Made by a program: the position numbers and the translations under genes
Assembly (NCBI RefSeq): GCF_026684035.1
Contig: NZ_CP113361.1
Coordinates: 620,001-684,000, forward strand
Source of the DNA: Methanogenium organophilum
GTDB taxonomy: Archaea; Halobacteriota; Methanomicrobia; Methanomicrobiales; Methanomicrobiaceae
Direction: 5' to 3'
Length of the DNA: 64,000 bases
Part shown: in pieces, positions 34,791 through 46,975 of the stretch
Position numbering within the stretch: position 1 is the stretch's first letter
Layout: each line of letters begins with the position of its first letter
Notes under the pieces: model-generated
Seen by the model: only the letters and a program-made list of their open reading frames with translations
Told to the model about the DNA's origin: nothing
Databases searched by the model: none

Positions 34791-35626
34791 TTCTCAACCA
34801 GCCCCTGTATCAGCCGGTTTGTTGTCTCCATGGACTCCGGGATGACTGGTGCAAAAAATGCAGAATTTTCCTGGAAGAATGCGGCAAACCCGTTCTGATC
34901 GCGGGTGTAGACAATCTCCTGCAGACGTGCTGCGGCACTGGAAAACGCCGTCACCACCTCCCGCACCTCAGGATTGTCCTGGAGGATAGGGCCGTAGAGA
35001 TCTGCGTCCTGTCCCAGAATTCTCCCGATAATTGCGGTCTCGATCTGGTATATGGGACTCTGGTACCGGAGGAGTTCCGCCGGTGCGGCACCGACATTTC
35101 GCATCGTCTCCGCGACAACAAGCGTGGAGAAGTGCATCAGACCCTGGATGACCGCCATCATCCGGTCATGCTCTGCTGCGGTTGCAACCGTTACCCGGGC
35201 TCCCTGCCGGGAGAGAAGCCCCATGATCTCATCACCTGCGGCGGGCATACACCGGGCGGGCACTGCGATCACCGTCTGGCCCTCCAGTGACGAAACACCC
35301 GGCCCAAACATCGGGTGCAGACCCAATACCTGTGCGGGTGTCGCAAGCATGGCCTCCATCGCCCCCTGCTTTATTGAGGTGAGGTCACAGAGAATCTGGC
35401 CTCCGGAGAGAAACGGGGCAATATCATTGATGACTGCCACCGTATCACGGATAGGGACAGAGACCACAACAATGCGTGCCTGCTGTGCACAGTCACGTGC
35501 AGAAAGCGGCGTGGTGCGCCCGGAAACAATGACCCGGTAGCCTTCTTTTTCGAAGATATCACGGAAGAACTGCCCCATAGCACCTCTGCCACCGATGATG
35601 CCCACGGTATTGTCGTCAGGTTTCAC
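34787..35626 (-). CDS. tyrA: Prephenate dehydrogenase
   Basis: An NAD(P)-dependent enzyme of 279 residues that makes 4-hydroxyphenylpyruvate for tyrosine. The nucleotide-binding loop is VGIIGGRGAMGQFF. The family motifs VVVSVPIRDT, LCDLTSIKQ and GLHPMFGPG follow; the HPMFGPG His is catalytic in TyrA. I choose the GTG at 35626 (VKPDDNTVG) because GGAG lies seven bases before it and the start then overlaps the end of the DHQ-synthase gene by a few bases; an upstream ATG (35683) would read far into that gene and add a non-conserved head. Confidence 0.88.
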   Translation of the reverse strand: MKPDDNTVGIIGGRGAMGQFFRDIFEKEGYRVIVSGRTTPLSARDCAQQARIVVVSVPIRDTVAVINDIAPFLSGGQILCDLTSIKQGAMEAMLATPAQVLGLHPMFGPGVSSLEGQTVIAVPARCMPAAGDEIMGLLSRQGARVTVATAAEHDRMMAVIQGLMHFSTLVVAETMRNVGAAPAELLRYQSPIYQIETAIIGRILGQDADLYGPILQDNPEVREVVTAFSSAAARLQEIVYTRDQNGFAAFFQENSAFFAPVIPESMETTNRLIQGLVEK

Positions 35627-36602
35627 GTATCGTCTCCGAAACAGCCACCCCGAAATGGCGTCCGCCCTCTTGCCGGTGGCCAAGAATGATGTCCCCGGGT
35701 TTCAGGGTAGCAACCGAGACTGCATCTCCGTCGGGACACACCAGACGGACCGTCTCTGCGTTCTGCAGCACAAGAGACGACTTCATTCCGTCCTGCTCAA
35801 CCTCAACGAGAACCATGGGCCGCCGTTCGGTCTTCACCCTTCCGACCATCGCCACCGTGGTGGAGCCGTCCTCGCGGGCGACAAGCACCCGGTCACCGGC
35901 CACCACCTCTGAGAGATATTTGGTCTTTCCGTCCGCCATCATAACGTAGGCATGCACCGCTCCTGCGTTCACCCGGAATGGACGGGGTGCCACATAGGGA
36001 TTCTCCAGTGTCTCCGCCTGCACCAGAAGAAAGGCTGACGAGGTATTGCCAATAAGCATCCCTTCTCCTTCATGGAGGAGGGAACAGGTATCAATACAGA
36101 CACGGTCCCCCATAATGCCCGGAGAAATTGCCGTGACGGTGAACGGCACCAGATCATAGTGCGGGGTGATAACACGCACGCGGGCGGCTGTTGCGATGAT
36201 CTCTGCAGGGTCGTCTGTTACAAGACATATACCGGCGGTCCCGCGTTCAAGTACGGTGAGCGCCATCTCCGCCTCGTCTGCATTTCGGACAACCGCAATG
36301 ATACGGTCAGACTGTGAAACCAGATTTTCCAGCGGAATAACCGACCAGTCTGTTGTTGTGACAATCACCGGTGTCTTCTCTGCAAAACGGAGGGCATCTT
36401 CTTCACCCTCCTTCCCATCAATGCAGACCTCATGCACATCGGTTCCGAGGATCATATCACCGTCCGGTGCGATGACCGTCACCCTGCCAAGGGCATGGAA
36501 CGGTGCTGCCTCGGCTGCCACCAGGGCATCTGCCCCCTGTTCAATTGCCGTTGTCGCACATTCCTTCCCACAGGAACGCACATCCACCCAGAAGGTCTTC
36601 AT
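35616..36602 (-). CDS. 3-dehydroquinate synthase II (archaeal AroB')
   Basis: The archaeal enzyme that oxidatively deaminates and cyclises 2-amino-3,7-dideoxy-threo-hept-6-ulosonate to 3-dehydroquinate. The 328 residues begin KTFWVDVRSCGKECATTAIEQGAD, and contain GICLVTDDPAEI, SPGIMGDRVCIDTCSLLHEGEGMLIGNTSSAFLLV, the strongly conserved FRVNAGAVHAYVMM, and KTKYLSEVVAGDRVLV, all typical of this family (no relation to bacterial AroB). It sits next to the ADH-synthase genes that supply its substrate. Confidence 0.95.
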   Translation of the reverse strand: MKTFWVDVRSCGKECATTAIEQGADALVAAEAAPFHALGRVTVIAPDGDMILGTDVHEVCIDGKEGEEDALRFAEKTPVIVTTTDWSVIPLENLVSQSDRIIAVVRNADEAEMALTVLERGTAGICLVTDDPAEIIATAARVRVITPHYDLVPFTVTAISPGIMGDRVCIDTCSLLHEGEGMLIGNTSSAFLLVQAETLENPYVAPRPFRVNAGAVHAYVMMADGKTKYLSEVVAGDRVLVAREDGSTTVAMVGRVKTERRPMVLVEVEQDGMKSSLVLQNAETVRLVCPDGDAVSVATLKPGDIILGHRQEGGRHFGVAVSETIRET

Positions 36603-37384
36603 ACATCTCCCCCAAGTGCATCCTCAGGCGTTGCGTTCTGGTGCACCACACGGGTGATAGCACGGATGAACGGTGCCGGGTTGTCACGCTGGAAGGCATT
36701 TCTTCCCATCGCGACCCCTGCTGCACCGGCACCCACCGCCTCACGGATCATCGCAAGGGACTCAATATCTCCACCCTTTTCACCGCCTGCGATCAGCACC
36801 GGTACTGCACAGGCACTGGTAATTGCGGCAAACGTCTCCGGATCACCAGTGTAACTGGTTTTAATGATATCGGCGCCCAGCTCTTCTGCCACCCGCACAC
36901 AGAGCCCGATTGCCTCCGGATCTCTCGTGTCAACACCCTCCCCACGGGGGTAGATCATGATGAGAAGCGGCATACCCCATCGGGTACACTGCCGGGAGAT
37001 GACACCCGCCTCCTCAATCATCTTTGATTCATTCGGAGCCCCCAGATTGATGTGAATGGAGACACAGTCTGCACCAAGGAAGATAGCCTCCTCCACCGAG
37101 CATACCGACACCTTATCATTCGGGTCCGGATTCAGCGACGTGCTCGCCGAGAGATGGACGATGAGACCGATATCAGGGCCTGTCTTCCGGTGCCCGTGGC
37201 GAACCATCCCCTTATGAAGGACAATCGCGTTCGCACCACCCTCACTCACCGCAGAGATGATCTCCGGCATATCGTGCAGCCCGTAGATCTGCCCGAGAGA
37301 GAACCCGTGGTCCATTGGGATGATGACTGATCGCCCGGTATTCCGGTTCATGATCCGCTCCAGACGGATGGCTTTTCCGATCAT
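36599..37384 (-). CDS. ADH synthase / class I aldolase family, second paralogue
   Basis: A 261-residue TIM-barrel protein of the archaeal DhnA-type aldolase family. It shares the family frame with its neighbour (LERIMNR, PMDHG, GGANA, GHR, LSAS, MIYPRG, the Schiff-base Lys in IIKTSYTGDP, IAGGEKGG and VAMGRNAFQ). It differs by IIPMDHGFSLGQIYGL near the start. In methanogens one member makes 2-amino-3,7-dideoxy-threo-hept-6-ulosonate (ADH), the other acts as a fructose-bisphosphate/DKFP aldolase, and I cannot assign roles from sequence alone. Four-base overlaps on both sides place it in the aromatic operon. Confidence 0.85.
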   Translation of the reverse strand: MIGKAIRLERIMNRNTGRSVIIPMDHGFSLGQIYGLHDMPEIISAVSEGGANAIVLHKGMVRHGHRKTGPDIGLIVHLSASTSLNPDPNDKVSVCSVEEAIFLGADCVSIHINLGAPNESKMIEEAGVISRQCTRWGMPLLIMIYPRGEGVDTRDPEAIGLCVRVAEELGADIIKTSYTGDPETFAAITSACAVPVLIAGGEKGGDIESLAMIREAVGAGAAGVAMGRNAFQRDNPAPFIRAITRVVHQNATPEDALGGDV

Positions 37385-38184
37385 ACACGGGTTCCTGCCC
37401 TGAGGATCTCTGCCGCTTCCTCTGCACTGCGGTGTTCATGCACGACCTGTGCCATTGCACGGACAAAGAGGTCAGGGTGCGGGTGCTGGAAGGCATTTCT
37501 GCCGATGGAAATACCTGCGGCGCCCCCTTCCATTGCGCCTTCTATCATCTGCAGGGTCGCAAGATCATCCCCGCGTGCACCACCTGCGACGACGACCGGG
37601 ACGTGGCACCCGGCGGTGACCTCACGGAATGAATCCGGATCCCCGGTGTATGGAGTCTTTACGATATCAGCACCGAGTTCAGACGCCACCCTGGCCGCAT
37701 GTTTCACTTCATCTTTTCCCTTCTCATTGAGTACATTTGGTCCTCGCGGGTACATCATCGCGAGAAGAGGCATGCCCCATTCCATACACTCAACTGCGAT
37801 ACGGCCCAGGTCTTCGAGCATCCGCGCCTCAGAGTCAGCACCGATATTGCAGTGAACCGACACCCCGTCCGCCCCCATCTTCAGGGCATTTGTGACCGTG
37901 TTCACGATCACCTTGTCGTTCGGGTCAGGGCCCATATCAGTGCTTGCAGAGAGATGGAGAATCAGACCGATGTCCGGGCCCCCTTTCCGGTGACCATGCA
38001 GGGCAAGACCAATGTGGCCAAGGACTGCATTGGCTCCCCCCTGTGCCACCAGGTTTATGCTTTCATCCAGATCGATGACACCTGCAATCGGCCCGCTCGA
38101 TACCCCGTGGTCCATGGGAACGATTACTGTTGCGCCCGTGTCACGGTTCATAATTCTTTCCAGTCGGATTTGTTTTCCTCTCAT
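37381..38184 (-). CDS. 2-amino-3,7-dideoxy-D-threo-hept-6-ulosonate (ADH) synthase
   Basis: The first gene of the aromatic operon, 267 residues, of the DhnA-type aldolase family. It uses aspartate semialdehyde and DKFP for the archaeal first step toward 3-dehydroquinate. The pattern VIVPMDHGVSSGPIAGVID is very close to known ADH synthases (PMDHGVSNGPI in Methanocaldococcus). GGANAV, GHRKGGPD, LHLSAST, MYPRG, Lys in IVKTPYTGD, VVAGGARGDD and ISIGRNAFQ are present. It is closer to ADH synthase than the next gene. Confidence 0.87.
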   Translation of the reverse strand: MRGKQIRLERIMNRDTGATVIVPMDHGVSSGPIAGVIDLDESINLVAQGGANAVLGHIGLALHGHRKGGPDIGLILHLSASTDMGPDPNDKVIVNTVTNALKMGADGVSVHCNIGADSEARMLEDLGRIAVECMEWGMPLLAMMYPRGPNVLNEKGKDEVKHAARVASELGADIVKTPYTGDPDSFREVTAGCHVPVVVAGGARGDDLATLQMIEGAMEGGAAGISIGRNAFQHPHPDLFVRAMAQVVHEHRSAEEAAEILRAGTRV

Positions 38185-38505: not shown

Positions 38506-39264
38506 ATGCGCAGGATTGGATTACTGGGGTGCGGAAATGTTGGAGAAATCATCGCACACAAACATGAGGGGTTTATTATCGCAGCTCTCCATGACGCCGT
38601 ATATACCAGAGCACAGGCCGTTGAGGACGCGTGCGGAGCCAGGGCATACGAGTCATTTGATGAGTTTCTTGCACAGGACATCGACATTGTGGTGGAAGCG
38701 GCATCGGTTTCTGCGGTGAAGACACACGCCGAAGCAATCCTTCTTGCGGGAAAAGATATGGTTATCCTCAGTGTGGGCGCCCTCACAGACAAACCATTCC
38801 GGGACCACCTGAAGGAGTGTGCAGTGTCGACCGGTGCACGGATATACATCCCGAGTGGTGCCATCACCGGCCTGGACAACCTCAAGGTCTGCCAGATTGC
38901 GAGAGTAAGTAAAGTGCTGCTGAGGACCACCAAAAATCCGCGTTCACTGGGCATTGAGGCAGACCATCCCATGCTCCTCTTTAAGGGGACCGCACGTGAC
39001 TGTATCCGCCAGTATCCGAAGAATATCAATGTCGCGGTAGCAATCGAACTGGCCTCAGGGCATGAAACTGAGGTCGAACTGTGGGCAGACCCAAATACTG
39101 ACCGCAATACCCATGAACTCATCGTAGAAGGTGAATTCGGAGATATAAATATCACGGTGAGCAACCGCCCCAGCCCGGAGAACCCGGCAACGAGTTATCT
39201 TGCCGCACTCTCCATCCTGACATTGTTGCGCAACCTCGATAACCCCATCCAGATAGGGACATAA
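38506..39264 (+). CDS. nadX: L-aspartate dehydrogenase (NAD biosynthesis)
   Basis: An NAD(P)-dependent enzyme of 252 residues that oxidises aspartate to iminoaspartate for quinolinate formation. The Rossmann motif GLLGCGNVGE is at the start. Family residues include VVEAASVSAVKTHAEAIL, VLSVGALTD in the form ILSVGALTD, IYIPSGAITGLDNL and INVAVAIELASG, with the catalytic His region later (NTHELIVEGEFG). It replaces L-aspartate oxidase in anaerobes. The gene directly precedes nadA and nadC. Confidence 0.95.
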   Translation: MRRIGLLGCGNVGEIIAHKHEGFIIAALHDAVYTRAQAVEDACGARAYESFDEFLAQDIDIVVEAASVSAVKTHAEAILLAGKDMVILSVGALTDKPFRDHLKECAVSTGARIYIPSGAITGLDNLKVCQIARVSKVLLRTTKNPRSLGIEADHPMLLFKGTARDCIRQYPKNINVAVAIELASGHETEVELWADPNTDRNTHELIVEGEFGDINITVSNRPSPENPATSYLAALSILTLLRNLDNPIQIGT

Positions 39265-39266
39265 CC

Positions 39267-40172
39267 ATGAATTCCGACCAGTTAAAACGGATAGAACAAC
39301 TTAAAAAAGAAAAGAATGCGATTATCCTCGCCCATAACTACGAGCCTCCGGAGATTCAGGACGCCGCAGACATCATCGGGGACAGTCTCGAACTTGCTGT
39401 GAAAGCACAAAGTGTTACAGAGGACACTATCGTCCTCTGTGGTGTCCGGTTTATGGCAGAAACCGCTAAAGTGCTTAACCCGGAGAAGACCGTCATTCTC
39501 CCGGCAAAGGATGCCGGATGTCCCCTTGCAGACTTCCTCACCCCGGAGATGGTCCGGGAGGCACGCAGCGCTCACCCCGGTGCGGCAGTCGTCCTCTATG
39601 TCAACAGTGATACTGCAGCAAAGGCGGAGGCGGACATCGTCTGCACATCGGCAAATGCCGTTGAGGTTGTCCGCTCACTCAAAGAGAAAACCGTTCTTTT
39701 CGGTCCTGACTCAAACCTTGCAGACTATGTGGCATCGCAGCTGCCGGAGAAAACGATCATTCCCCTGCCACCGGAGGGACACTGCTATGTTCATGCAAAG
39801 TTCAGCTGCGATGATGTCATCGCAGCAGCTGAGATGGGCTGCACCACAATTTGCCACCCGGAATGTCCCCGTGAGGTCAGAAACGGGGCGGATGTGGTGG
39901 CATCGACCGGCGGCATGGTGAAGATGGCAGAGAATGCGGATTCATGGATGCTTCTCACGGAGAAAGGCATTGCTTACCGGCTTCAGAAACTCTTTCCCGA
40001 AAAGGAATTTCACGTCCGTGAAGATGCTGTCTGTGATGATATGAAGAAGATTTCGCTTGATATGCTGGAACAGGCACTCATCACCGGTGAGTATGCAGTA
40101 GAACTCCCCGCAGATCTGATGGAGCGGGCACGTGGCCCCATCGAAAGGATGATAGCACTCCAACGGAGATAA
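39267..40172 (+). CDS. nadA: Quinolinate synthase
   Basis: A [4Fe-4S] enzyme of 301 residues that condenses iminoaspartate with dihydroxyacetone phosphate. The family pattern is clear: AIILAHNYEPPEIQDAADIIGDSLELA, GVRFMAETAKVLNPEKTVILPAKDAGCPLADF with the first cluster Cys, GHCYVHAKF, then CTTICHPECPREV with the second cluster Cys, and ASTGGMVKMAE. A third cysteine toward the C-terminus (AVCDDMKK) completes the cluster. It starts two bases after nadX. Confidence 0.96.
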   Translation: MNSDQLKRIEQLKKEKNAIILAHNYEPPEIQDAADIIGDSLELAVKAQSVTEDTIVLCGVRFMAETAKVLNPEKTVILPAKDAGCPLADFLTPEMVREARSAHPGAAVVLYVNSDTAAKAEADIVCTSANAVEVVRSLKEKTVLFGPDSNLADYVASQLPEKTIIPLPPEGHCYVHAKFSCDDVIAAAEMGCTTICHPECPREVRNGADVVASTGGMVKMAENADSWMLLTEKGIAYRLQKLFPEKEFHVREDAVCDDMKKISLDMLEQALITGEYAVELPADLMERARGPIERMIALQRR

Positions 40173-40179
40173 GGGGACT

Positions 40180-41034
40180 ATGCAACTTCGCGAAGATCTC
40201 CTCCGCTACCTGAATGAAGATATCCCCTTCGGCGACGTTACCTCACGGGCTGTTATCCCGGACCGCAGGTGTGCGGCCTACATTACCGGAAAAGAGAACG
40301 CAATTATTTCAGGCCTCGCCGAGGCAGAAGCACTCTGTAATCACTGCGACATCACATTCACCAGGAAGGTTTCGGAAGGTGCAGAGATTCGGCCGGGTAC
40401 CGTTATTGCAGAACTTGCAGGCACCGCAGCAGCAATCCTCATGGTGGAACGCACCATGCTCAACCTGATGAGCAGGATGAGCGGCATCGCAACGGCAACC
40501 CGCCGGGCAGTCAGAGCAGCAGAAGCGGCAAATCCTGCCGTCCGAATTGCAGGCACCCGCAAGACCGCACCCGGCCTGCGCCTTTGTGACAAAAAGGCAC
40601 TCATCACCGGCGGCGCGGACCCGCATCGTATGAGCCTCTCTGACATGATCCTCATCAAGGACAACCATCTGGCACTTGTCCCCTTAGAAGATGCGGTAAA
40701 AAAGGCCCGTGCCTATAGCCGCTATGTCAATGTGGAAGTGGAAGTGGAGACCGCATCGGACGCACTCACTGCAGCACGGGCAGGGGCAGACATTATTCTC
40801 CTCGACAACATGCTTCCCCGTGACGTGCAGGAAACGCTTGACATCCTCACAGAAAATAATCTGCGGGAACAGGTGATCATCGAAGTCTCCGGCAATATCA
40901 CACCTGACACCCTCGAGTCCTATGCCGTTTTGGGTATTGACACTATCAGCATGGGAAGACTCACCCATACGGTGAAAAACATCGATCTATCACTTGAAAT
41001 TATGCCCGCAATGAACACCGTCAAAATATTCTGA
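40180..41034 (+). CDS. nadC: Nicotinate-nucleotide pyrophosphorylase (quinolinate phosphoribosyltransferase)
   Basis: Converts quinolinate and PRPP to nicotinate mononucleotide, 284 residues. Signatures: ERTMLNLMSRMSGIATATRRAV, IAGTRKTAPGLRLCDKKALITGGADPHRMSLSDMILIKDNH, VEVEVETASDALTAARAGADIILLDNM and IEVSGNITPDTLESYAVLGIDTISMGRLTH. It ends the nadX-nadA-nadC operon. Confidence 0.96.
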   Translation: MQLREDLLRYLNEDIPFGDVTSRAVIPDRRCAAYITGKENAIISGLAEAEALCNHCDITFTRKVSEGAEIRPGTVIAELAGTAAAILMVERTMLNLMSRMSGIATATRRAVRAAEAANPAVRIAGTRKTAPGLRLCDKKALITGGADPHRMSLSDMILIKDNHLALVPLEDAVKKARAYSRYVNVEVEVETASDALTAARAGADIILLDNMLPRDVQETLDILTENNLREQVIIEVSGNITPDTLESYAVLGIDTISMGRLTHTVKNIDLSLEIMPAMNTVKIF

Positions 41035-41332: not shown

Positions 41333-42370
41333 TTAGACCAGCTTGAAGAGCGGGTGGTCCTCTGTTGCGACGTCCACACCAAGCTCTTTTGCTGCTTCTG
41401 CAAGGACAATATCGGTGAATGCGATTGCGGTGGATGCACCTTCACAGTTCTCGATAGGTCCGTACATGATAAGGTCTGCACCAAGGGTTGCTGCCATGAT
41501 GTTACATCCGATATCAGGTGCTGACCATGCAGCCTGCTTGATACCATCGAATCCACCGAAGTGGTGATGTCCCATCTGCTCAAGAAGAAGGTCCTTACCT
41601 TCATACTGGCTGAGAAGCACAGAGGGGTTCTTTGCAGTTCCTCTCCAGCGCTTGAGCCACGTCCAGGAGACAGTCATGTTGTGGTATGCACCACCGGTTG
41701 GGAGACCGTGGATTGCCTTGCATGCAAGAATCTCACGGAATGAACCGCCTGACCCGAGACCGAGCGGTGTTGCTGCGGTATCGAGGATAGGCCGGGTAAT
41801 GCCACACTCTTCTGCGATTGAAAGCATGGACTTCTCCTGACCAGCGACGCCACCCTCTGCGAGGACAGCCTCACGGCCCTTTACACTTGCGTCACCAGGG
41901 TTGAATGCGAGCACAATAGCTGCGTCAACGTCACTGTTCTTGAGTGCCTCAATGTTCTCCGGGAGGATTGAACCATTGATAGAGTTGTAGATAGCACGGT
42001 CTGCCAGTCCAACCTCGGTCACATACTCACATGCGTGAGCAAGTGCAGGAGGCATGGACGAGTCCATGAGGAATGCCGTCTTGCTGTCAATGGAGTCAAA
42101 CCATGAGAAGTAGCTCTCAAAAGCCTCTCCTGATTCAGAGATAATCTGGATGAAGTGTTTTACACCTGTCTGGTCAGAAAGTTCCTGACATCTGTTCCAG
42201 AGCGCCTCTGCACGATCCTTGTCAATTATGCCTTTCTCATCATCAATAACACACTCGTGCTTGTTATAGAAGATGGATGCACCGAGAACCCGTGGATATT
42301 CGCCGGGCTGCCCGCCTATCTTGGTACCGTTGAAATCGTGTACCGCCTGTTCTTTCTCGAATTTGAACAT
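41333..42370 (-). CDS. mtrH: Tetrahydromethanopterin S-methyltransferase subunit H
   Basis: The cytoplasmic subunit that moves the methyl group from methyl-tetrahydromethanopterin (or its sarcinapterin form) to the corrinoid of MtrA. The 345 residues form a TIM barrel of the pterin-binding family: FNGTKIGGQPGEYPRVLGASIFYNKHECV near the start, YNSINGSILPENIEAL, AIVLAFNP, and the C-terminal LGADLIMYGPIENCEGASTAIAFTDIVLAEAAKELGV. It is the last gene of the mtr operon, 13 bases after the MtrA'-MtrG gene. Confidence 0.96.
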   Translation of the reverse strand: MFKFEKEQAVHDFNGTKIGGQPGEYPRVLGASIFYNKHECVIDDEKGIIDKDRAEALWNRCQELSDQTGVKHFIQIISESGEAFESYFSWFDSIDSKTAFLMDSSMPPALAHACEYVTEVGLADRAIYNSINGSILPENIEALKNSDVDAAIVLAFNPGDASVKGREAVLAEGGVAGQEKSMLSIAEECGITRPILDTAATPLGLGSGGSFREILACKAIHGLPTGGAYHNMTVSWTWLKRWRGTAKNPSVLLSQYEGKDLLLEQMGHHHFGGFDGIKQAAWSAPDIGCNIMAATLGADLIMYGPIENCEGASTAIAFTDIVLAEAAKELGVDVATEDHPLFKLV

Positions 42371-42383
42371 TTTTTCCCCCTCC

Positions 42384-43127
42384 TCAGATAAATCCGCCTA
42401 ACTTGGGGAGTAATACCAGTAACATCATGAATACAATCAGACCAGCGACAAGGCCATAGAGAATGCCTATGTCACGGCCGACCTTACGGCCATAGCGCTG
42501 AGCAAGTTCTGCATCAGCAAACTCCAGTTTCTTCTCGATAGCGTTGAGTTTGGCCTCAATTTCGAGGAACTGTGGGTTCGCTGTGGCAGCCACTGCACCG
42601 CCTTCGGCACCGCCTTCACCTTCGCTGACATCGACGACCATCGCGTCACCCTCGAATGCACCGGGATCCTTCCCTGCACACTCGGTGATCTTTGCGGTGA
42701 TAGCGCCCATGTCTTCCGATTCCATGATGTCGATAATCTCGACCTGCTGCTGGAACCGCTCGATTGCGGCTGCGTCAAGGTTCTCGATGAATGCGATTGC
42801 ACCCTGTGAACCGACGATCTTACCGCCTTCGACACCATTTTCGTGCAGAGCTTTCAGTGACTGGGCCGAAAGGTGACCCTTCACTTCTGTTCCACAGAAG
42901 ATGACGAAGCGGATGTTCGGATTCGAGATGGTGTTTGCAATCAGCTTCTCAAGTCCAAGGTTCTCTGTCTTACAGGAACCACAGATAGCAGCGCCTGCAT
43001 CACAGATACCCTGTTCGTCAAGGTGAGACCCGAACGTACAGACAGCAACACAGCTCTCTGCACTGCCGGAGTGATAATCACCCTGGATGATTGGCCAGCC
43101 TGATGCCGGAGATTTCTTGTCTGCCAT
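42384..43127 (-). CDS. MtrA-domain / MtrG fusion protein
   Basis: A 247-residue protein at the mtrG position. Residues 1-168 differ from the MtrA encoded upstream at only four places (D24E, G88A, N133D, E166D), keeping His85 in EVKGH, the expected lower cobamide ligand, and all cysteines. After an acidic Gly-rich linker, the tail (about residues 183-247) is not MtrA-like but matches Mtr[21 protein letters not shown], then [25 protein letters not shown], one C-terminal membrane helix. So the MtrG subunit carries its own cobamide-binding domain. An in-frame GTG at 42593 with GGCGGT ahead could also make free MtrG of 69 residues. Confidence 0.9.
42612..43127 (-). repeat. Second copy of the mtrA cobamide-domain DNA
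   Basis: This 516-base part repeats 43551-44066 (offset 939 bases) with only scattered, mainly synonymous differences by eye. Sequence similarity stops abruptly after the domain end, where the linker and tails diverge. Confidence 0.85.
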
Positions 43128-43340: not shown

Positions 43341-44066
43341 TCACCCCATCAGAAGGAAGCCCAAAAGGACAAACGATATGACCAGTCCGATCATTACTCC
43401 CTCGACTTTACCGGAATACACACCCGCTGCATAGCGGTTGCGGTATCCCATGTCTGTCACCATCATCTGGATAGCTTTCATCCGGGCATGGATCAGAGCA
43501 AGTTCGCCGGACATCTCTGCCTCGACGCCTTCGCCTTCGCCTCCGGCACCGCCATCTTCATCGCTGACTTCGACGACCATCGCGTCACCCTCAAATGCAC
43601 CGGGATCCTTCCCTGCACACTCGGTGATCTTTGCGGTGATAGCGCCCATGTCTTCCGATTCCATGATGTTGATAATCTCAACCTGCTGCTGGAACCGCTC
43701 GATTGCGGCTGCGTCGAGGTTCTCGATGAATGCGATTGCACCCTGTGAACCGACGATCTTACCGCCTTCGACACCATTTTCGTGCAGAGCCTTCAGTGAC
43801 TGGCCGGATAAGTGGCCTTTCACTTCTGTTCCACAGAAGATGACGAAGCGGATGTTCGGATTCGAGATGGTGTTTGCAATCAGCTTCTCAAGTCCAAGGT
43901 TCTCTGTCTTACAGGAACCACAGATAGCAGCGCCTGCGTCACAGATACCCTGTTCGTCAAGGTGAGACCCGAACGTACAGACTGCAACACAGCTATCTGC
44001 ACTTCCGGAGTGATAATCGCCCTGGATAATTGGCCAGCCTGAGGCCGGTGATTTCTTATCTGCCAT
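43341..44066 (-). CDS. mtrA: Tetrahydromethanopterin S-methyltransferase subunit A
   Basis: The corrinoid-carrying subunit of Mtr, 241 residues. The cytoplasmic domain (residues 1-168) shows [37 protein letters not shown] with His85 as the probable cobalt ligand, and [15 protein letters not shown]. After a Gly/Glu linker comes the true MtrA C-terminus ([14 protein letters not shown]...[19 protein letters not shown]), with one membrane anchor. It receives the methyl group from MtrH and passes it to coenzyme M, driving Na+ export by MtrE. It lies just after mtrB. Confidence 0.96.
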
Positions 44067-44077
44067 ATCATATCACC

Positions 44078-44362
44078 TCATAAGAATCCAAACGCGATTA
44101 TCCCCGCGATGAAAAGTCCAACGGCAAGACCGTACCACATTGCTGTGACACCACCTGCGTAAAGCAGGGACTGATCTCTTCCGGGGAACGAAGCAAGGAA
44201 TTCTCCCTCTCCGGAAAGCATGTTGACGATGTCGTCTGCGACCTTGTCGAGTTTTTCGACACGCTCAACAACCGGGCCGAGAGATGCCCCTGCGGTAGTC
44301 ACAAGACCGACCATGGGGTCAGCGACAAGACCATATTCAGGCAATACCTGGATATATCCCAT
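44078..44362 (-). CDS. mtrB: Tetrahydromethanopterin S-methyltransferase subunit B
   Basis: A 94-residue subunit with one C-terminal membrane helix (VTAMWYGLAVGLFIAGIIAFGFL). The soluble head begins GYIQVLPEYGLVADPMVGLV, as in MtrB of other methanogens. The ATG overlaps the end of mtrC by one base. Its role is structural in the membrane-bound Mtr complex. Confidence 0.93.
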   Translation of the reverse strand: MGYIQVLPEYGLVADPMVGLVTTAGASLGPVVERVEKLDKVADDIVNMLSGEGEFLASFPGRDQSLLYAGGVTAMWYGLAVGLFIAGIIAFGFL

Positions 44363-45225
44363 TACTGTTCACCTCCGACTTCGCGGATAGGCTGTGCGTC
44401 AAGCCAGTCATATGCATCACGCTTCGAGAGCTTGATCAACTCACTGTAGGACCATCCCCAAAGGATGATTGAAATAGCAAATGAGATGACGACAGCTGGA
44501 ATCGAGAGGAATGCAATTGACATAACAGCAACGCCAATCATGCTCAGAGCACCGCACTCAATTGCGCACATCTGTGTACGGTCCCATGATTCATTCGGAC
44601 CGAGACATGCATTGAACGGGTGCTGGATTGCAATTGCACCAAGCATGAAGATTGTTGCGAGCACACATCCACCAATTACGGATGATGCATAGCTTGCAAT
44701 TTCAACGCCAAAGACTGATGTTGCACCGGTGATGAGGTCTCCGAATGAGAACGTACCTGCAACCATTGCAGTGAACCCGAGCATTGTCAGTGAACCGACA
44801 ACGGTGAGCTCTGCAATCATGCGGGTCATAACCGGGATGTTCATGTTGAGAACCTTATCTGAGATGAATCCGAGGATTGCTCCGAGGATTGCTGCAACAA
44901 CAACACAGCCGATAGGCACGAGAAGCGGGCTGATACCTGCAAGTTTTGTTGCAAAGAGCATGGCAACAACACCGGAACCAAGCGCGATCATACCCGCGGA
45001 TGGCACACCGGTACCAAGACCATAGCTGCAAAGGTTCTTAATTGAGTCAGTACCCCACCAGAGTACGATGATAGCCGCAAGCCCGCCAAAGAAGGCGAAG
45101 ACTTCCGTTGACATCAGGGTGTTGAGGTAGACCAGATAGATACAGACCAGTGCGCCAACGACCCCAATGCCAAGCATGACATTGTGGTCCATTCCGCCTT
45201 CTGATGCTTCAATTTTTACTGACAT
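44362..45225 (-). CDS. mtrC: Tetrahydromethanopterin S-methyltransferase subunit C
   Basis: An integral membrane subunit, 287 residues with about seven helices. MtrC-typical segments include ITPLL-like GISPLLVPIGCVVVAAILGAILGFISDKVLNMNIPVMTRMIAELTVVGSLTMLGFTA and FNACLGPNESWDRTQMCAIECGALSMIGVAVMSIAF. With MtrD and MtrE it forms the membrane part of the complex. It follows mtrD after 11 bases. Confidence 0.94.
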   Translation of the reverse strand: MSVKIEASEGGMDHNVMLGIGVVGALVCIYLVYLNTLMSTEVFAFFGGLAAIIVLWWGTDSIKNLCSYGLGTGVPSAGMIALGSGVVAMLFATKLAGISPLLVPIGCVVVAAILGAILGFISDKVLNMNIPVMTRMIAELTVVGSLTMLGFTAMVAGTFSFGDLITGATSVFGVEIASYASSVIGGCVLATIFMLGAIAIQHPFNACLGPNESWDRTQMCAIECGALSMIGVAVMSIAFLSIPAVVISFAISIILWGWSYSELIKLSKRDAYDWLDAQPIREVGGEQ

Positions 45226-45236
45226 TCTCTAACACC

Positions 45237-46067
45237 TCAGATTACCACCAGAAGAATAGCAACAAGACCGCAGGCTGCACATGCTGCAGACGATCCGATT
45301 ACTGCACGGGGCCATCTCTTGAACTTCGGGTCGTGAGGACCTTCGATTGTACCGGTAATGTTGTACGCGGTAAGTACTGCTGCTACAAGGAACATTCCGA
45401 CAGCAAAGATACCTGCAAGGGATACTGCAAGCGTGGTCATGCCCTCGGGGGTCATGCCAAGGAATGACGGAAGTGCCTCCTCGTAGACGGAGAGAAGCTC
45501 AAGATAAATGAGTGTTCCACCCATACCACCGAAAATACCACCAATTACACCACCAACGTAGGAGATGAACGGAAGTCCGTGACCCTCTGTTCCCTGAGAC
45601 TTGTATGCAGGGAAGGTGTCACCGGTGATGGGGTCTTTGTCGATCTTACCGGATGCAGCGGGAATACCCATTGCATAGACGTAGACAACGTTCACCATCA
45701 GACAGGTAATTGCCATCAGGAGACCGCCACCCATTGCGCCTGCACCGAGTGCAACCCAGATACCCATCTCAGCTGCCCATGCACCTCCGAAGAGACCTGC
45801 AAGGCCACCACCGGCAGCGAGCATTGCAACACCGGTAGCGATACCGGGTGCCTGGCCCATTGCTGCTGGTGCACCACCAACCGGTACGAAGTGCACACCA
45901 AAGGAGATGAGCACGCCGCCGATGATGACGCCGATGAGGGGAATGAGTGCCGACGGATAGAGAGCATAGATGATGCCCACAGATACCAGTACGATAACGA
46001 GTGCGATCACTGATGCTGCGGGGTTAATACCCTCTCCACCAGCTGAACCGCCACCTAATGCGCTCAT
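45237..46067 (-). CDS. mtrD: Tetrahydromethanopterin S-methyltransferase subunit D
   Basis: An integral membrane subunit of 276 residues with about six or seven helices. The family is shown by IIGGVLISFGVHFVPVGGAPAAMGQAPGIATGVAMLAAGGGLAGLFGGAWAAE, CLMVNVVYVYAMGIPAASGKIDKDPITGDTFPAYKSQGTEGHGLPFISYVGGVIGG, a strongly conserved extended loop. The ATG overlaps the mtrE stop codon by four bases. Confidence 0.95.
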   Translation of the reverse strand: MSALGGGSAGGEGINPAASVIALVIVLVSVGIIYALYPSALIPLIGVIIGGVLISFGVHFVPVGGAPAAMGQAPGIATGVAMLAAGGGLAGLFGGAWAAEMGIWVALGAGAMGGGLLMAITCLMVNVVYVYAMGIPAASGKIDKDPITGDTFPAYKSQGTEGHGLPFISYVGGVIGGIFGGMGGTLIYLELLSVYEEALPSFLGMTPEGMTTLAVSLAGIFAVGMFLVAAVLTAYNITGTIEGPHDPKFKRWPRAVIGSSAACAACGLVAILLVVI

Positions 46068-46975
46068 GCTGTTGCCTCCTCTTCTGCTGCTGTTTCTTCA
46101 GTATACGGGCCGTAGGTCTTACGTGCCCATGTCTCGACAAAGCGGTCGATGACCATGAAGATGATAATGATTACTGCACCGGCGATCACTGCTCCCCAGC
46201 CTGCTGCGAATGGCTCGAAGAGAATGGTACGCCATAACTCGAAGAACACAATAAGACCGAAACAGATACCGGATGCGGGACCTGCTCCCTTGGATGTGAA
46301 CCATCCGTTGTCGAGTGAACTTCTCTGTCCTGCCTCTGCATACCGGACAATGTCACCAGATGCGGAGATAGGTAAACCTGCTCCGAAGTCGTACTTCTGG
46401 TACTGGCGTTCTTTTCCGTAGAACGGGTTACCAGTCGCCGACCCTGCTGCTCCCAGTGCAATTCCCCATACAATACCCATCAATGGCAGCGGGAACGGGT
46501 GTCCCAGAGCCTCGATGATGAGGAAACACATAGTAACAGTGGTGAAAATCGCCACGAATGCGTGGGCCATAGTCACGGATGTAACCGATTTCAATATATC
46601 GATATACACCGGCTGTTCGAATTTTGCGAGACTTGCTGTACGACCGAGATATGCAGTCGTTGCGTAAACGCCCTGCACAAAGACTGCGACCGCAGAACCA
46701 ATGATGAGAGCAAGAATCGCATTGTACTGAATCGCCATCAACGCCCAGGCAATTCCAGCAGCTAATGCCACCCATAGACCGTACGCAGGGGGTTCACCGG
46801 ATACTGCTTTATTGTAGATCCTGTGAATATACCCCATCTGCGGAGCCAGCTGAACCTGTGAGTTCGGGTCACCCTGTGATCCGATATCAGATTCAGTGTC
46901 CTCCGCAGCGCCAGCCACAGTGGCAAGAGCGCCGGCTAAAGCGCTGATACCGATGCCAAATAGTATTTCTTCCAT
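46064..46975 (-). CDS. mtrE: Tetrahydromethanopterin S-methyltransferase subunit E
   Basis: The subunit that is thought to translocate Na+, 303 residues with about six or seven helices. It has the typical start ILFGIGISALAGALATVAGAAEDTESDIGSQGDPNSQVQLAPQMGYIHRIYNKAVSGEPPAYGLWVALA and the internal GNPFYGKERQYQKYDFGAGLPISASGDIVRYAE. GGAGG lies eight bases before the ATG. It heads the mtr operon. Confidence 0.96.
   Translation of the reverse strand: MEEILFGIGISALAGALATVAGAAEDTESDIGSQGDPNSQVQLAPQMGYIHRIYNKAVSGEPPAYGLWVALAAGIAWALMAIQYNAILALIIGSAVAVFVQGVYATTAYLGRTASLAKFEQPVYIDILKSVTSVTMAHAFVAIFTTVTMCFLIIEALGHPFPLPLMGIVWGIALGAAGSATGNPFYGKERQYQKYDFGAGLPISASGDIVRYAEAGQRSSLDNGWFTSKGAGPASGICFGLIVFFELWRTILFEPFAAGWGAVIAGAVIIIIFMVIDRFVETWARKTYGPYTEETAAEEEATA

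Follow-up and report, generated by a model that had tools for sequence, protein, structure and literature searches.

We examined a window of 64,000 nucleotides from Methanogenium organophilum (contig NZ_CP113361.1, positions 620,001 to 684,000 of the forward strand; positions below are those of the window), in which a complete mtrEDCBAFGH operon lies on the minus strand, downstream of mcrA. The gene that occupies the mtrG position, between mtrF and mtrH and with a canonical mtrA (mtrA-1) upstream, is a single open frame of 247 codons with an ATG start and no internal stops; its product carries an MtrA domain (Pfam, residues 4–173; 275.9 bits, E = 1e-82) followed by an MtrG domain (residues 184–238; 79.1 bits, E = 2e-22), and NCBIfam likewise assigns it to both mtrA and mtrG. 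A preliminary description made from the bare sequence had read this gene as a near copy of the MtrA cobamide domain joined to MtrG, and the domain searches bear that reading out. The MtrG part matches the MtrG chains 9qtq_S and 8q3v_G, and the named genomes closest to it are those of Methanogenium marinum and M. cariaci, also Methanomicrobiales. The host genome, a single contig of 2,648,164 bp that is 99.88% complete, contains two MtrA and one MtrG. The operon and the parts of the fusion are as follows.

46064–46975, minus strand: mtrE
45237–46067, minus strand: mtrD
44362–45225, minus strand: mtrC
44078–44362, minus strand: mtrB, with an N-terminal segment about 5 residues shorter than in other orders
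43341–44066, minus strand: mtrA-1, canonical MtrA with its own stalk/membrane helix
43129–43335, minus strand: mtrF
42384–43127, minus strand: mtrA-2b, the MtrA–MtrG fusion of 247 residues (single open reading frame; Pfam and NCBIfam)
42624–43127, minus strand: second cobamide domain, residues 1–168, His85 kept (identity to the MtrA of the same locus; cofactor residues; model)
42576–42623, minus strand: acidic Gly/Ala-rich linker, residues 169–184, including an in-frame GTG at codon 179 (low model confidence at residues 170–184)
42387–42575, minus strand: MtrG part, predicted as one long helix, residues 185–247 (Pfam MtrG; structure matches; model)
41333–42370, minus strand: mtrH, 345 residues, with an order-specific insertion at residues ~244–280

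The fusion itself is already known. The preliminary description had thought an MtrG-linked form of MtrA possibly new, but Wang, Chen, Cao and Lou published it in 2015 under the name mtrA-2b: MtrG with a fused MtrA domain, encoded between mtrF and mtrH in each of the eight Methanomicrobiales genomes available at the time, its MtrA domain kept similar to the other mtrA copy by gene conversion (PMC4632066). The same authors described mtrA-2a, fused to MtrF, in Methanococcales and Methanocella arvoryzae, and, with reference to Sarmiento et al. 2013, called both mtrA paralogues essential (PMC4632066). Later work again counted mtrA among cases of long-lasting concerted evolution (2018; PMC6053082) and called mtrF and mtrG ‘subject to frequent gene fusion’ (2023; PMC9982363).

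We searched 232 Methanomicrobiales genomes for MtrG and found a match in 179, exactly one per genome, with no second source of MtrG in any of them. About 100 loci were fetched, 75 of which had two MtrA-domain starts; three damaged loci were set aside, and in each of the remaining 72 clean loci MtrA-1 has a membrane helix of its own, MtrF is present, and MtrG carries a fused MtrA domain. A search of related genomes for MtrG with an N-terminal MtrA domain, proposed in the preliminary description, thus finds the arrangement throughout the order. No free MtrG was seen elsewhere in Methanomicrobiales among the matches listed, and a rare exception beyond these is conceivable. Every apparently free MtrG that we opened proved to sit at a contig ending in the repeat, an N gap or a frameshift (N gaps within the MtrA part in four genomes, a frameshift in a draft contig in another), and the short MtrG frames left unopened lie near a contig start by their coordinates. 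By contrast, among 49 genomes from other lineages of the phylum, 44 have an MtrG match and in all 44 MtrG is free, in frames of 56–127 residues. MtrA–MtrF fusions occur in G239 and G257, two genomes from a single other family, and are absent from a third (G248).

Two further observations concern mtr annotation. In many draft genomes of Methanomicrobiales (for example at loci L034, L042, L046 and L234) the operon is broken, collapsed or N-filled at the near-identical mtrA repeat, so that mtrG or mtrF may falsely look missing or free. Separately, three genomes (G286, G430 and G537) have additional MtrF-like matches, in frames of 234–263 residues, beside a normal MtrF, possibly the EDCB[AF]FGH arrangement of PMC9982363.

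We compared the two MtrA domains within and across loci. In the window, residues 1–168 of the fusion differ from MtrA-1 at only four sites (D24E, G88A, N133D and E166D) with His85 kept, the same number of substitutions as had been noted at the outset. Over the first 164 codons the copies differ at 20 of 492 nucleotides (16 synonymous and 3 non-synonymous codons), giving 98.2% identity over 164 residues, and past about codon 165 the similarity drops. The pattern holds across the 72 loci, where mean identity is 97% within pairs against 78% among MtrA-1 sequences of different species. In a DNA tree, the two copies of a locus are sisters in 56 of 72 cases, the fused domain being closer to the mtrA-1 of its own species than to its orthologues; the other 16 pairs fall inside small clades (4 to 8 sequences), a pattern that episodic conversion would produce. 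The pooled within-pair ratio of non-synonymous to synonymous differences (pN/pS) is 0.10, which is supportive of function, not proof of it, since conversion itself copies functional sequence.

With cobamide contacts taken from PMC4915002 and mapped by matching position, His85, the cobalt-ligating histidine, is invariant in both copies at all 72 loci, as are Asp17, Lys53, Thr54, Glu55, Asn56, Gly58, Asn65 and Ile111; Tyr18 and Val62 show conservative variation in the two copies alike, and both have Lys at the position that matches Asn82. The least similar pairs, whose 83.5–87% identity implies little recent conversion, retain every one of the invariant residues. In an AlphaFold2 model, the N-terminal part of the fusion adopts the MtrA fold (root-mean-square deviation of 1.6 to 5l8x), residues 170–184 of the linker have a predicted local distance difference test score below 50, and residues 185–246 form one long helix. 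MtrG is nearly whole in the fusion: all that it has lost are the few initial residues that precede the IPxxVVDP segment of free MtrG. The spacing from the DPGAF motif to the MtrG segment, 23–26 residues, resembles that of MtrA, for which the count of 32–35 residues runs to a later landmark inside the helix. The fused MtrA domain is thus apparently functional as a cobamide carrier, judging from its residues and predicted fold. An in-frame GTG at 42593, put forward as a possible start for free MtrG, does exist at codon 179, but the nearest relatives read have no start codon there, and for want of conservation an internal start is unsupported.

What might a second carrier do? In the Mtr structures from M. 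marburgensis (PMC10998594) and M. mazei (PMC12774963), helices of MtrA, MtrB, MtrF and MtrG form a central stalk with cytoplasmic N-termini, and the MtrA cobamide domain hangs on a flexible linker; an MtrA domain fused to the N-terminus of MtrG would therefore lie on the correct side of the membrane, near MtrH. We consider it likely that the fusion is a working second corrinoid carrier that replaces free MtrG, so that each protomer would hold two tethered B12 carriers, MtrA and MtrA-G. MtrA-G would assemble into Mtr in place of free MtrG, its second domain sitting on the cytoplasmic N-terminus of MtrG through an acidic, flexible linker of roughly the length found in MtrA; once loaded with cofactor, it would turn over alongside MtrA, both carriers taking methyl groups from MtrH and delivering them to coenzyme M at MtrCDE, while gene conversion would keep the two domains interchangeable. 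An Mtr unit with two corrinoid domains, held by MtrA and by MtrG respectively, as the preliminary description envisaged, would fit all the sequence evidence, and its suggestion of a doubled methyl-carrying capacity is plausible on the same grounds; for its ‘swap site’ or altered Na+ coupling we see no specific support.

The M. mazei complex offers one possible reason for such an arrangement. There, an MtrH dimer docks on the MtrB of each protomer, giving six MtrH per three MtrA, and the authors think that MtrA mainly uses the proximal MtrH, doubting that it reaches the distal one (PMC12774963). A second carrier could serve the distal MtrH, and it is tentatively conceivable that MtrA-G exists to do so, attending to the second, otherwise poorly reachable MtrH of each protomer’s dimer.

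Two changes elsewhere in the complex, both new here, bear on this cytoplasmic region. The MtrH of the window carries an insertion of about 25–30 residues (at residues ~244–280) that recurs in 73 of 73 further Methanomicrobiales MtrH, each 339–346 residues long, and is absent from all 19 outgroup MtrH and from M. mazei. It comes immediately after the stretch that aligns with a basic patch, the proposed holding site of the pterin tail, lies beside the proposed exit of that tail, and is modelled with two short helices. The N-terminus of MtrB is shortened by about 5 residues (TTAGxSxxP as against AEEREDxIxYSMDP) at 75 of 75 Methanomicrobiales loci and at 0 of 15 outgroup loci, and in M. mazei the corresponding end is close to the sheet where MtrH docks. 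It is a speculative and rather doubtful extension that MtrA-G, the MtrH insertion and the shortened MtrB belong to one joint remodelling of the cytoplasmic tip of Mtr, such that two carriers would serve two MtrH sites, one loading while the other delivers. We considered the MtrH insertion as a general mark of a second MtrA domain and rejected it, the MtrA–MtrF fusion genomes G239 and G257 being without it. Both changes occur together with the MtrA-G fusion, but a single origin of each in one common ancestor could account for that, and the MtrA–MtrF genomes are without them, so no causal link to the fusion follows. On another reading, the MtrH insertion is an adaptation to some other pterin; Methanogenium is known to have tatiopterin.

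Several points weigh against a working second carrier. No position consistently separates MtrA-1 from MtrA-G across the 72 loci, so no specialised role is visible; lineages with free MtrG function with one carrier; gene conversion could maintain the domain without much selection; and the M. mazei authors take the proximal MtrH to be the one that MtrA mainly uses. Our literature search found nothing usable on proteomics of the fusion in Methanomicrobiales, hence no protein-level data, and neither structure nor proteomics of a Methanomicrobiales Mtr. One rival idea is that of a passenger domain: one fusion at the base of the order, of which only the MtrG part is needed, with conversion from mtrA-1 overwriting mutations in the rest. 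Conversion is indeed real and recurrent, and the two copies show no consistent differences; yet the least similar pairs keep their cofactor residues, none of the 72 clean loci has a pseudogenised MtrA part, and similar fusions arose independently in other orders, which together make a passenger unlikely.

The interchangeability of the copies also suits a pure dosage effect, in which the second domain raises the amount of carrier close to the complex, or has a part in assembly or regulation, with no pairing to the second MtrH, and the sequence favours neither MtrH site. Against this, the linker joins the stalk next to the MtrB/MtrH docking region, a placement that makes a local role at least as likely, and we regard dosage alone as distinctly improbable. 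That the fusion is a misassembled repeat or a frameshift, the true genome having a separate mtrG, was a natural concern, since the repeat does break drafts, many contigs ending or being N-filled inside it. Order-wide conservation nevertheless refutes it: the 72 clean loci have distinct flanks and many lie in one-contig genomes, the copies in the window differ at 20 nucleotides, and the host genome has no free MtrG elsewhere, so that the chance of such an artefact, which the preliminary description had named as grounds for rejection, is negligible. A working second carrier on MtrG is the reading that we prefer, one further supported by the fusion being the only MtrG in the genomes with a match and by the independent MtrA–MtrF fusions of other lineages.

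Methanogens without cytochromes have no chemiosmotic step other than Mtr, and a whole methanogen order may run it with two B12 carriers in each unit. In that case the cobamide content of the complex and the kinetics of methyl transfer would differ in Methanomicrobiales, as perhaps would the coupling model. The M. marburgensis and M. mazei structures are from orders with free MtrG, and the words ‘fused’ and ‘fusion’ are absent from both structural papers (PMC10998594, PMC12774963). The fusion having been published, the remaining interest lies in this testable two-carrier architecture.

Beyond the operon, the window contains two other clusters. At 36599–38184 on the minus strand, two neighbouring genes that have diverged from each other encode 2-amino-3,7-dideoxy-D-threo-hept-6-ulosonate synthase (TIGR01949), and the gene for 3-dehydroquinate synthase II comes next (35616–36602); at 38506–41034 on the plus strand, aspartate dehydrogenase, NadA and NadC form an ordinary NAD biosynthesis cluster.

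Among known systems, the gene in the window is a member of mtrA-2b, sharing its order, domain order, site between mtrF and mtrH and homogenisation with mtrA-1, and differing only in that its genus is missing from the eight species of PMC4632066. The mtrA-2a genes resemble it in placing a second MtrA domain at the N-terminus of another single-helix stalk subunit and in their concerted evolution with mtrA-1, but their partner is MtrF rather than MtrG, and they are regarded as of independent origin. Canonical MtrA (8q3v, 9qtq) has the same plan of a cobamide domain with its His ligand, an acidic flexible linker and one stalk/membrane helix, whereas the helix of the fusion is that of MtrG. Soluble MtrA homologues, MtxA among them, share the cobamide domain and have mostly retained the His ligand, yet are without a membrane anchor and lie outside the mtr operon (PMC4632066, PMC4915002). 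The EDCB[AF]FGH operons of TACK archaea, Methanoliparia and ANME-1 also contain an mtrA gene fusion inside the mtr operon, although PMC9982363 does not describe it as a second copy of MtrA.
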